From the NCBI GenBank assembly GCA_026988315.1, contig JALSLJ010000090.1, forward strand, positions 1 to 39,328: DNA of 39,328 nucleotides, written 5' to 3'. Numbering within the stretch: position 1 is the stretch's first letter; each line of letters begins with the position of its first letter. Positions 21,746 through 24,993 of this stretch are shown in pieces. Made by a program: the position numbers and the translations under genes. The notes beneath the pieces are model-generated. The model saw only the letters and a program-made list of their open reading frames with translations. It was not told the DNA's origin and made no database searches. This stretch comes from Sulfurimonas sp. (GTDB lineage: Bacteria; Campylobacterota; Campylobacteria; Campylobacterales; Sulfurimonadaceae).

Positions 21746-22177
21746 GTGAGCGTAATTCTTACACAAACCGACACTACTGTCGGTTTTTTATCTCAAAACG
21801 CCAAAAAACTTTATGAGATAAAATCTCGTAATACTACAAAGCCATTCATAAGAGTTTATTCAAATTTTAAAACCCTTTTATCTTTTGGCCATAGAATTCC
21901 AAATAAATTCAAAAATAGTGTGAGACGATCAAAAAAAACAACTTTTATTGTTAAAAACACTGCCTTTAGAGTTGTAGAGCCCTCTTTAGACTCTCAAATT
22001 CTTAAAAATTTACAATGGAATTTTTCCACATCTGCAAATGAATCCACTAAAAAGTTTCACAGAGAGTTTTGTGAAAAAAAAGCTGATATAATAGTAGAAG
22101 ACAATGAAGGATTACACGAGTATAGCTCGTCGAGTCTTATTAAGATTGGTAAAATTAAAAGGAGAAAAATAAGATGA
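21746..22177 (+). CDS. Short Sua5/YciO/YrdC-family (TsaC-like) protein
   Basis: A 143-aa protein from GTG 21746, which directly follows carB. The N-terminus SVILTQTDTTVGFLSQ matches the family's PTDTVYGL start, LYEIKSRNTTKPF matches the K-x-R..KP element, and FSTSANEST matches the TSAN motif. TsaC/Sua5 makes threonylcarbamoyl-AMP from Thr, bicarbonate and ATP for tRNA t6A. At 143 aa it is well short of TsaC (about 190), lacking part of the C-terminal half. An in-frame ATG at 21704 would lie inside carB. It could be the lineage's slim t6A enzyme or a relative with another role. It is coupled to the next gene by an ATGA overlap and carries a terminator in codons 7-15. Confidence 0.7.
   Translation: MSVILTQTDTTVGFLSQNAKKLYEIKSRNTTKPFIRVYSNFKTLLSFGHRIPNKFKNSVRRSKKTTFIVKNTAFRVVEPSLDSQILKNLQWNFSTSANESTKKFHREFCEKKADIIVEDNEGLHEYSSSSLIKIGKIKRRKIR
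21765..21789 (+). terminator. Intrinsic terminator within the start of the TsaC-like gene
   Basis: AAACCGACA (21765-21773) pairs perfectly with TGTCGGTTT (21778-21786) around a CTAC loop, ending in T6 (21784-21789): a 9-bp GC-containing stem with 4-nt loop and U-tract. It starts 22 bases after the carB stop and lies wholly inside the next gene, encoding the conserved TQTDTTVGF stretch. Confidence 0.7.
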
Positions 22178-22617
22178 GTAAATTTGTCATGGCTTTTTTA
22201 AGTGGTACTTTTTTTACATTTATCTTAGATTTTTTCATCTTTTTAGGAATTAAACTTCACTATATAGATTTTTACGGAATTGATCTTTATTACAATATAC
22301 TCTTTGCTGATAATCAAAGCCCTCTGCTTTATCTTGTTTCAAGTATAATTTTAGGATATATTACTATCTATATTGACAATAATAAACTCAGCACGATTGT
22401 ACTTGGGATTTTGTTTTTCATAGTTTCATTAACTCTTATAGAACCTATTGGTAATTATGTAGGAAAGATGATACTTATGGAAAAAAATGTAACTTTTAGA
22501 GACCATAAATATACTTTTACAGGGGATATTTACTATAATGGCAGAGATACAATAACATTTTATGATTATGAACTTGAAAAAATTATATTTTTAAAGAAAA
22601 AGGATTTAAAACAATGA
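22174..22617 (+). CDS. Three-helix membrane protein of unknown function
   Basis: A 147-aa protein. I do not recognise a family. Hydrophobic segments are at about residues 5-28 (FVMAFLSGTFFTFILDFFIF), 49-67 (SPLLYLVSSIILGYITIYI) and 72-93 (LSTIVLGILFFIVSLTLIEP). A soluble tail of about 50 residues with Asp/Tyr-rich GDIYYNGRDTITFYDYE and a basic Lys cluster follows. Its first 4 bases overlap the TsaC-like stop and its last 4 overlap the lipoprotein gene, so it is embedded in a tightly coupled unit. An inner-membrane location is likely. GGAGAAAAATAAG precedes the ATG as ribosome site. Confidence 0.85.
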   Translation: MSKFVMAFLSGTFFTFILDFFIFLGIKLHYIDFYGIDLYYNILFADNQSPLLYLVSSIILGYITIYIDNNKLSTIVLGILFFIVSLTLIEPIGNYVGKMILMEKNVTFRDHKYTFTGDIYYNGRDTITFYDYELEKIIFLKKKDLKQ

Positions 22618-23189
22618 AGCATATTTCTTCAATAGCCGGTGGCGTTGCACTTGGGAGTGCGGGTGTTCTTATGATGAGTGTACTAAGCGGATGTGAAGCA
22701 CCACAAGAACAACAACAGCAACAAAATCGTTTCATAGTAATTGAACAACAAGCAAATGGAAAGTATATAGTTGTTGAAGAGATGCCTACCGAGGGTCCTA
22801 GTCGTGCGATTATTCGTGAAAAAGATGCCAATGGTAATACTGTTGAGCGTTTTATGAGTGAAGCAGAGATGAAAGCACTTGCAGAACAAGAGTATCAAAA
22901 AGTACAAGACGGCACATCTGAGACTATACAAAGTGGTGACAGCAGTGGCGGTATGGGTCTTGCAGGAACTATATTAGCTGTAGCGGCAGGTTCACTTTTA
23001 GGTAATATGATTGGTAATGCTTTAATGAACAACAAAAACTTTTCAAAGAATGCAGCAAACTCTAATAAGAGTGCTTATAGTCGTTCAGCCGCTTCAAGAA
23101 GTTCAACGAAAAAAAGCAGTACAAGAAAAAGTTTCTTTGGTGGTAGTTCTAGCAGAAGTTCATCTTCTAGCAGAGGTTTTGGAAGTTGA
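22614..23189 (+). CDS. UPF0323 family lipoprotein
   Basis: A 191-aa lipoprotein. The signal sequence ends in the lipobox LSGC with Cys27, followed by a Gln-rich run. A mixed domain (RFIVIEQQANGKYIVVEEMP, RAIIREKDANGNTVERFMSE) leads to a glycine-zipper hydrophobic segment (MGLAGTILAVAAGSLLGNMI, about residues 110-130) and a Ser/Arg/Lys/Gly tail ending SSSSSRGFGS. I recognise it as UPF0323, known from Helicobacter and Campylobacter (Cj0371 type). The layout of lipobox, glycine-zipper and Ser/Gly tail also resembles E. coli YgiB (DUF1190). In both lineages the next gene is a glutathionylspermidine-synthase-like ATP-grasp enzyme. Function unknown. Confidence 0.85.
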   Translation: MKHISSIAGGVALGSAGVLMMSVLSGCEAPQEQQQQQNRFIVIEQQANGKYIVVEEMPTEGPSRAIIREKDANGNTVERFMSEAEMKALAEQEYQKVQDGTSETIQSGDSSGGMGLAGTILAVAAGSLLGNMIGNALMNNKNFSKNAANSNKSAYSRSAASRSSTKKSSTRKSFFGGSSSRSSSSSRGFGS

Positions 23190-23191
23190 GC

Positions 23192-24370
23192 ATGGTTACA
23201 TTACAAAAATTAAGTCCACTTGATGATGCAGCTTTAGAAGAGTTAGGTTTTACTTGGCATACAGATGAAGATGGAACGAAATATGTAAGTGACGAGCTTG
23301 TTGAAGTATCACATAGTGAGGCAGAAGCTTATTATGAAGCAGCAAATACAATCTATGATATGTATGTAGAAGCTGCAGAATTTGTAATTGCCAATGATCT
23401 GTTTTTTGAGCTTGGCATCCCTTTTAATCTTGTTGAAGCGATTAAAAAAAGTTGGGAAAGTGATGTTCACTGGCACATCTATGGGCGATTTGATTTAGCT
23501 GGTGGTCTTGACGGTAAAGATATAAAACTCATAGAATTTAACGCTGATACTCCAACTGGTCTTTTTGAAACAGCCCTACTTCAATGGGCATTACTCAAGC
23601 ATAATGATATGGATGAAGCCAAACAATTCAACAATGTATATGAAGCGATAAGTCAAAACTTTAAAAGACTCATCACCCTATTTGATGATACAGAACTTTT
23701 TGATGAGCGTTATGATGGCTGGAAAATACTTTTTTCATCCATAGATGGCAATGACGAGGAGGAAACAACAACAAGACTACTCCAGCAGATGGCAACTGAT
23801 GCTGGATTTAACACAAGTTTCGAATATCTGCAAAATGTAAATTTTGATGACAACGGAATCTCTGATGCATATGAAAATGGGTATGAATACTGGTTTAAAC
23901 TCTACCCATGGGAAGATATGGGGCATGATGAACCAGAACTAGCTACCACTATATCAAACATTATGAAAAATCAAAAAGCAATCATATTAAACCCTGCATA
24001 CACACTACTCTTTCAATCAAAGGGGATGATGAAAATCTTATGTGACCTTTTTCCAGACTCTCCGTACCTACTAAAAACTTCTTTTGAGCCACTAGAGGGG
24101 ATAAAACAGGTTGAAAAATCTGTATTTGGTAGAGAGGGTGCGAACACTAAAATCATTGACGCTAAAGGTGATGTTTTACAAGAGAAAGATGGCCCATATG
24201 ATAACTATAAAAAAGTGTATCAAGAGTATGTAGATTTTAACAAAGATATTCATGGCAAAAAGTATCAAGCTGGCGTTTTCTTTGCTTATGAGGCTTGCGG
24301 AATGAGTTTTAGAAAAGGTGATGAGATTATGGACAATATGAGTAAGTTTGTAGGTCACATTCTCGTTTAA
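23192..24370 (+). CDS. Glutathionylspermidine synthase-like ATP-grasp ligase
   Basis: A 392-aa protein of the GSP_synth family, preferred start ATG 23192 (GGAAG 6 bases before; a TTG at 23186 is possible). Family features: GRFDLAGGLDGKDIKLIEFNADTP-type region (IEFNADTPTG near residue 113 holds the ATP/metal residues), NPAYTLLFQSKGMMKILCDLFP near 270, LLKTSF, and a C-terminal ACGMSFRKGDEI where the family has a glycine- and acid-containing ATP-grasp loop. True GspS also has an amidase domain, absent here. The stand-alone form equals YgiC/YjfC, whose substrate is not firmly known. It follows the UPF0323 gene by 2 bases and converges with the FmdE-like gene. Confidence 0.88.
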   Translation: MVTLQKLSPLDDAALEELGFTWHTDEDGTKYVSDELVEVSHSEAEAYYEAANTIYDMYVEAAEFVIANDLFFELGIPFNLVEAIKKSWESDVHWHIYGRFDLAGGLDGKDIKLIEFNADTPTGLFETALLQWALLKHNDMDEAKQFNNVYEAISQNFKRLITLFDDTELFDERYDGWKILFSSIDGNDEEETTTRLLQQMATDAGFNTSFEYLQNVNFDDNGISDAYENGYEYWFKLYPWEDMGHDEPELATTISNIMKNQKAIILNPAYTLLFQSKGMMKILCDLFPDSPYLLKTSFEPLEGIKQVEKSVFGREGANTKIIDAKGDVLQEKDGPYDNYKKVYQEYVDFNKDIHGKKYQAGVFFAYEACGMSFRKGDEIMDNMSKFVGHILV

Positions 24371-24381
24371 GTATATTTCTT

Positions 24382-24409
24382 AGTTACAAGCCTTTATAAG
24401 CTTGTAACT
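24382..24409. terminator. Bidirectional hairpin between ATP-grasp and FmdE-like genes
   Basis: AGTTACAAGC (24382-24391) pairs perfectly with GCTTGTAACT (24400-24409), a 10-bp stem around the 8-nt loop CTTTATAA. The FmdE-like stop (TAA on -, 24394-24396) is in the loop. There is no T-tract on either side, so termination strength is uncertain. Confidence 0.6.
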
Positions 24410-24993
24410 GTAATAACACTTTGAGAATTTTCAAAAATTCTTTTAACTCTATCTTGCCAAATTGTACCAAAGTCTATAAGCTCTTCTTCACTTGCACTAC
24501 CTTGCATCATTTTTTGCATCAATGGTTGCATTTTTGGATTTGGAGCAACAGAGGATGGATTATAAATAACATCTACACTTTCATTATTGTCAATTCTGGT
24601 AAATCTTGCAGATGAACTAATATTTGCATTAAAATCCATAAGAGAGTGTCTAGCAAACTTACCAGCTAAACCTTTAAATCCACTTCTATCAGTCGCACCT
24701 GTTATATGAGATATAACATTACCTATGACACCGGCAACTCCATCTTCTAGCGATTCTTTAAACTCCACTTTAATACTACCTCGAACAGCTCTTTCGTTTG
24801 GATAGAGAGCTTTTAATGCCTCTTGCGTTATGAGGTATGCACCTGCAACTGTTGGGCAACTATGCCCTGCTGATTTTACAACATCAAGATAAGTAAACTC
24901 ATACTCACCATTTTCAAATGCACCTAGTACATTAGAGAGGGGGTCTTTCACTTGAATAACTTCACAATTGTCAAAAAACTTTGGATAACTCAT
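24394..24993 (-). CDS. FmdE-like metal-binding domain protein
   Basis: A 199-aa protein. KSAGHSCPTVAGAYLITQEA (near residues 40-60) fits the FmdE family signature (GHxCPG..GY), whose Cys/His bind metal in the formylmethanofuran dehydrogenase operon protein E. Here the pathway context is absent, so the name carries no methanogen function. No other Cys pair at the C-terminus and no TM segment is seen. The start overlaps the xseA stop in a TAATG junction, with GGAAT as ribosome site inside xseA. I would not assign a substrate; stand-alone FmdE-like proteins of bacteria are largely uncharacterised. Confidence 0.6.
   Translation of the reverse strand: MSYPKFFDNCEVIQVKDPLSNVLGAFENGEYEFTYLDVVKSAGHSCPTVAGAYLITQEALKALYPNERAVRGSIKVEFKESLEDGVAGVIGNVISHITGATDRSGFKGLAGKFARHSLMDFNANISSSARFTRIDNNESVDVIYNPSSVAPNPKMQPLMQKMMQGSASEEELIDFGTIWQDRVKRIFENSQSVITVTSL

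Follow-up and report, generated by a model that had tools for sequence, protein, structure and literature searches.

Within the window, that is, the whole stretch of 39,328 nucleotides of the Sulfurimonas sp. contig analyzed here, a gene encoding a ligase of the glutathionylspermidine synthetase type directly follows a lipoprotein gene, and this arrangement raises the question on which substrate the ligase acts. The UPF0323 lipoprotein, assigned by NF003146 and the family alignment and proposed as substrate or partner of the ligase, comprises 191 amino acids and is encoded at positions 22614..23189 of the plus strand. The stand-alone GSP_synth ATP-grasp ligase (23192..24370, plus strand), identified by PF03738 and by its homology to YgiC/YjfC, has a length of 392 amino acids counted from the ATG at 23192, which is located 2 bases past the TGA of the lipoprotein gene; an alternative TTG at 23186 would overlap. 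Upstream, an ORF encoding a three-TM protein (22174..22617, plus strand) is translationally coupled to the lipoprotein gene, the start of which it overlaps by ATGA. Further neighbors of the pair are carB and a gene for an FmdE-like protein, and genes encoding DUF350 and PspA proteins are absent. The FmdE-family protein (PF02663) is encoded at 24394-24993 on the minus strand, convergent with the ligase gene. A terminator-like hairpin at 21765-21786, directly 3' of carB, would set the operon apart from its upstream neighbor. All features which a first-pass annotation of the sequence had described for lipoprotein and ligase, namely the ORF positions, the lipobox, the glycine zipper, the tail, the 2-base gap and the lack of an amidase domain, were confirmed.

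The ligase matched PF03738 with residues 13-390 of 392 (E 4e-119, 398 bits), and no amidase domain was found in it by the domain search. Its nearest solved structures are those of E. coli YgiC (7uk8, E 7e-33) and YjfC (7uk6). Residue roles described for trypanothione synthetase (TryS; PMC3581523) were transferred through a profile alignment to TryS and GspS. In this alignment R99, D101, E115, and N117 correspond to TryS R328, D330, E344, and N346, and T122, K277, and K309 to S351, K513, and K548, with Thr122 replacing Ser351; as far as the alignment indicates, the residues serving Mg, ATP and the activation of the carboxylate are retained. An acidic pair, E189-E190 (23756..23761, plus strand), aligns with Glu407, which contacts spermidine in TryS, and with Glu408, and E189 is invariant across 13 diverse ligases. 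The residues holding the gamma-glutamyl carboxylate in TryS (Met459, Ser462, Ser571) showed no apparent conservation when the ligase alignments were inspected by eye, which suggests an altered substrate preference. By its full-length domain and its catalytic and spermidine-contact residues the enzyme is a clear YgiC relative of the YgiC/YjfC type, for which peptide-spermidine activity is predicted. For YgiC and YjfC themselves, such peptide-spermidine ligase activity has been reported in vitro (10.1021/acs.biochem.2c00592, as cited in PMC12568646). Moreover, nspC, which belongs to the carboxynorspermidine route to spermidine, was found in the genome of the window, and no export signal was found in the ligase.

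Other ATP-grasp proteins were encountered as well. Two weak matches to the glutathione-synthetase family in the window's genome were not assigned to that family; judged by their size and neighbors, we read them as other ATP-grasp proteins of a peptidase cluster. On contig C34 of the same genome, two consecutive ORFs for RimK-like ATP-grasp proteins (L196 and L197) adjoin apparent M20 and M14 peptidase genes, a locus resembling a small peptide-modification cluster. Genome G015 (locus L081) has two GSP_synth matches, the lipoprotein-adjacent one being more diverged (52% identity) than in relatives.

The lipoprotein matched the NCBIfam model NF003146 (PRK04081; UPF0323) over its full length with an E-value of 4e-55 and 186.4 bits, slightly below the curated cut-off of 194 bits, and its relatives from the same GTDB family likewise scored under this cut-off. 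Against PF06693 (DUF1190) no match was obtained at E up to 1. The signal peptide and the lipobox VLSGC (22614..22694, plus strand) end with Cys27, which is invariant in 28 relatives of the family alignment. A Gly-rich hydrophobic segment of the glycine zipper type (residues 111-137; 22944..23024, plus strand) is present in all relatives examined; in UPF0323 proteins it has an acidic region on its N-terminal side and a K/R-rich tail on its C-terminal side. An hhalign comparison of UPF0323 with DUF1190 yielded a probability of 89% over 28 columns, with the hydrophobic segment as sole aligned region, and we do not accept homology of the two families as proven.

The window's lipoprotein has a Ser/Arg/Lys tail, which ends with SSSSSRGFGS. 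This tail contains RKSFFG (residues 171-176; 23124..23141, plus strand), the proposed counterpart of an RGGFG sequence in other ligase partners, within which F175 is invariant in the family alignment, and terminates in RGFGS (23172..23186, plus strand) with the conserved terminal [FY]-G-[S/G/A]. The family motif [RK]S[GF]F[FG] was found in 61 of 81 distinct UPF0323 tails, 20 members being missed by the expression, compared with 1.9% of composition-preserving shuffled tails. Of the 81 distinct proteins, 80 end with S, G or A; position -2 is occupied by Gly in 65, against a background of 10%, and position -3 by Phe or Tyr in 73. Some members (rows L022, L025, and L028) carry the motif twice, and its second copy lies 8-10 residues from the end. 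The terminal FGS is thus present in the window, and the inner motif occurs in relaxed form only; the strict pattern [RKH]xG[FLYWIM]G was not found in the window's lipoprotein tail, and by comparison of the sequences KSGFF/KSFFG resembles RGGFG only loosely. An AlphaFold2 model of the lipoprotein alone reached a mean pLDDT of 59, was confident solely in a region of four strands plus a helix, and gave no fold match in the PDB. In a natural read-through fusion of lipoprotein and ligase, modeled as a tethered chain whose C-terminus is not free, AlphaFold2 predicted no docking of the tail, which was disordered and in which pLDDT fell to about 27.

Co-occurrence of the two genes was analyzed in 298 nearly complete genomes of Campylobacterota. 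The ligase was present in 270 of them, the lipoprotein model was matched in 273, and 270 genomes contained both. Not a single genome carried the ligase without the lipoprotein, and a genuine lipoprotein without ligase was detected only once. Sorting of the lipoprotein-only calls revealed a weak match to an unrelated protein (G086), a contig end (G232) and one real case (G212). In this sole exception among the 298 genomes, the UPF0323 lipoprotein (L069) has an intact tail, and no ligase was detectable. Both genes are jointly absent from genomes of the window's genus (two), of genus g16 (three) and of genus g20 (two), and also from the families f5, f6, and f12, among others; such recurrent joint absence in separate genera argues for a loss of lipoprotein and ligase together. 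In three further genomes (G023, G046, and G236) the genes are located far apart, and both are kept, with intact lipoprotein tails. Since these genomes retain the pair in unlinked form, co-retention goes beyond mere shared location, and the pairing of lipoprotein and ligase is not due to chance. Genomes in which ligase and lipoprotein occur independently, named in the first-pass annotation as evidence that would speak against a common function, were therefore essentially not encountered within the Campylobacterota.

A C-terminal sequence shared by ligase partners was first suggested by the neighbors of plasmid-borne ligases. GTDB genomes were scanned for YgiC-like ligases, and the neighbors were listed for the best 80 loci, which include Pseudomonadota, Actinomycetota, Acidobacteriota, Verrucomicrobiota, Planctomycetota, Bacteroidota, Hydrogenedentota, and a relative of Geobacter. 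The strict partner pattern [RKH][GSQA]G[FLYWIM]G within the last 70 residues, which was worded after the neighbors had been listed and hence is no blind test, was found in an adjacent ORF at 75 of these 80 loci, which are rich in Enterobacterales and not independent of each other; among 965 non-adjacent ORFs, only 3 carried it, and shuffling of the tails produced it in 1.8%. The weight of the tail signal is carried by the size of this contrast and by those phyla with the tail that are missing from the plasmid examples, i.e., Acidobacteriota, Verrucomicrobiota, Planctomycetota, Bacteroidota, and Hydrogenedentota. At 74 of the 75 loci the tail partner is encoded directly upstream of the ligase, the gap ranging from -1 to 55 bases. 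The tails of these 75 partners have the layout [RKH]-x-G-[FL]-G, then a spacer, then G-[G/S] as the terminus; the RGGFG piece, which is most conserved, lies 7-31 residues ahead of the C-terminus. In these partners from outside the Campylobacterota, Gly is found at position -2 in 67 of 75 and a terminal G or S in 69 of 75, with a background of 16% Gly. The five misses include two near matches (SGGFG at L124, RGTFG at L157) and a contig end (L184). The remaining two, L148 from Amnibacterium and L189 from a planctomycete, are loci of YgiC-like ligases without a recognizable adjacent tail partner.

Apart from their tails the partners are diverse. After removal of the last 45 residues, they fell into 14 groups unlinked by BLASTP at E 1e-3, some of which may be distantly related. 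DUF1190 was matched by only 11 of 21 sampled partners, and an alignment of these 21 gave a mean identity of 18% with conservation concentrated in the tail. The partners from Geobacillus and Virgibacillus are lipoproteins of merely 86-91 amino acids, ending with KSGLGSGKSSAGS and KSGIGSSVKPSGRGASS. As judged from these comparisons, the tail is the only feature common to the ligase partners across phyla, and the occurrence of the same kind of tail in partners of about a dozen phyla suggests that it is what the ligase works on. The earlier proposal that the enzyme acts on, or with, the lipoprotein tail has thus gained strength.

The closest described counterparts are found in E. coli. The pair resembles YgiB-YgiC of the tolC-ygiBC operon in gene order, short spacing, the homologous stand-alone ligase and the lipidated partner; like the window's lipoprotein, YgiB has a Gly-rich hydrophobic segment, and its tail ends with RGGFG...SMGG. 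In contrast to UPF0323, YgiB matches DUF1190, the bodies of the two lipoproteins are without detectable BLASTP similarity, and the window has no tolC neighbor. The correspondence to YgiB-YgiC postulated beforehand nevertheless holds, given homologous ligases, an identical gene order and a related tail at the end of both lipoproteins. A ligase together with a tail partner is also encoded by yjfIJKLMC, in which the tail of YjfM, the partner of YjfC, reads SRGGYGRSSSARGHWGG, whereas the window lacks neighbors like the PspA-like YjfJ, DUF2491, and DUF350. With GspS/amidase and trypanothione synthetase the ligase shares the ATP-grasp core as well as the catalytic and spermidine-contact residues; in contrast to them it has no amidase domain, the gamma-glutamyl pocket is apparently not conserved and a protein tail is the proposed substrate. 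The three-TM protein, for which a role as third partner had been considered, is linked to the pair in the window's family only, and its relatives elsewhere are unlinked. In two genomes (G061 and G105) such relatives persist though lipoprotein and ligase are both missing. It is an optional local neighbor and not an obligatory partner.

The distribution of charges in UPF0323 proteins, acidic before and K/R-rich after the Gly-rich segment, would agree with a cytoplasmic orientation of the tail. In Campylobacter jejuni, Cj0371 is the UPF0323 protein and Cj0372 the ligase gene adjoining it, and HP_0232 of H. pylori is a further UPF0323 protein. EGFP exported by the Sec system is non-fluorescent. 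A C-terminal fusion of Cj0371 to EGFP displayed polar fluorescence (PMC4944492), which suggests a cytoplasmic C-terminus of Cj0371; the protein also pulls down the cytoplasmic CheV (PMC6104132). E. coli YgiB and HP_0232 were detected in vesicle fractions (PMC7973035, PMC13136172), so that the published evidence on location conflicts. Short partners, e.g., those of Geobacillus and Trichlorobacter, have no second membrane segment, and their tails should consequently end outside. For this reason a cytoplasmic location of the tail was rejected as a general rule. As the ligase is without an export signal, it would have to act on such partners before export, and a modification preceding export would reconcile the data.

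Taken together, we propose that a widespread module, of which the pair may be the Campylobacterota version, combines a tail-bearing protein, usually membrane-anchored or lipidated, with a peptide-polyamine ligase resembling YgiC. The cytosolic ligase would recognize the C-terminal tail by a motif of the [RK]-x-G-F-G type and the terminal G-[G/S], activate the C-terminal carboxylate with ATP in the way glutathionylspermidine synthetase activates the glycyl carboxylate of glutathione, and link a polyamine, most likely spermidine, to it. The lipoprotein would thereby gain a polycationic C-terminal cap, presumably serving envelope stress adaptation or, in Campylobacter, the tuning of polar chemotaxis. 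That the tail is the substrate, spermidine the amine and the C-terminus the site of the bond is what we infer from these data, as is the physiological role. Recognition of the tail and attachment of a polyamine to its carboxylate, taken as a whole, appears to us somewhat better than an even bet.

Among the alternatives, a function of the tail as docking or regulatory element, which would tether or control the ligase at the membrane while another peptide or protein is modified, is unlikely, though supported by the position of RGGFG 7-31 residues from the C-terminus at the best 80 loci, just where a docking motif would lie, and by the selection of YgiC from an inner-membrane proteome with Min system-dependent composition (PMC4858940). 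Docking alone would not need conservation of the very last residues, which are conserved as well. These terminal residues, i.e., the tail with its G-[G/S] signature, point to chemistry at the C-terminus and leave the amine unspecified, and the apparent lack of conservation of the gamma-glutamyl-binding residues of TryS, as seen by eye, indicates a changed substrate preference; the tail could accordingly be joined to an amino acid, another amine or an amino group of the cell wall, the latter resulting in a crosslink between lipoprotein and envelope. We regard an amine other than spermidine as quite unlikely, since the spermidine-contact glutamate is invariant, the E. coli homologs use spermidine in vitro according to the report cited in PMC12568646, and polyamine genes occur in related operons (PMC11237479).

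Two simpler readings have far less in their favor. Ser/Gly-rich tails are expected to show weak resemblances, and the likeness of the tails could be a mere low-complexity bias in two independent genes with ordinary linkage; given the frequencies of 1.8-1.9% in composition-preserving shuffles and 3 of 965 in the controls, and the co-retention of lipoprotein and ligase also where they are unlinked, this is close to refuted and very improbable. The synthesis of glutathionylspermidine, suggested by the family name and the conserved ATP-grasp core, is rejected in view of the domains and the pocket residues and retains next to no probability: an amidase domain is lacking, the binders of the gamma-glutamyl carboxylate in TryS are apparently not conserved, and YgiC was reported to be without glutathionylspermidine synthase activity (PMC12506659). 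This report and those on peptide-spermidine ligation fit the apparent lack of conservation in the gamma-glutamyl pocket, and the initial view that the ligase does not make glutathionylspermidine is upheld.

The designation as an undescribed system applies in part. Already published are Cj0371 as a chemotaxis- and virulence-associated protein, the annotation of Cj0372 as GSP_synth (PMC2846917), the activity of YgiC and YjfC, and the operon association of GspS-like ligases with DUF1190 lipoproteins, DUF350, and PspA-like proteins (PMC11237479). In the literature found on Cj0371 there was no mention of ligase or tail, and we found neither a paper on the shared tail or on a link between UPF0323 and the ligase nor a report on the natural substrate of YgiC or YjfC; subscription papers, including a 2009 amidoligase survey, may hold related predictions. 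What is new relative to the known systems is a partner that is not a DUF1190 protein, though the ligase is a clear relative of YgiC. The main claim, that tail and ligase belong together, is supported, and of all results the wider tail signature most deserves to be followed up. Common to otherwise unlike partners that are encoded beside the ligase in about a dozen phyla, the tail is a candidate substrate, and it can also be used to recognize partner proteins without a family name. A more far-reaching reading, to which we give somewhat less than even chances, is a widespread bacterial modification in which dedicated envelope proteins receive a polyamine at their C-terminus in an ATP-dependent manner by means of a portable RGGFG-type tail, common to the partner families of about a dozen phyla, with UPF0323 proteins and YgiB/YjfM as natural substrates. 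If true, many bacteria would possess such a system of protein modification, and Cj0371 with its relatives would become more accessible to biochemistry.
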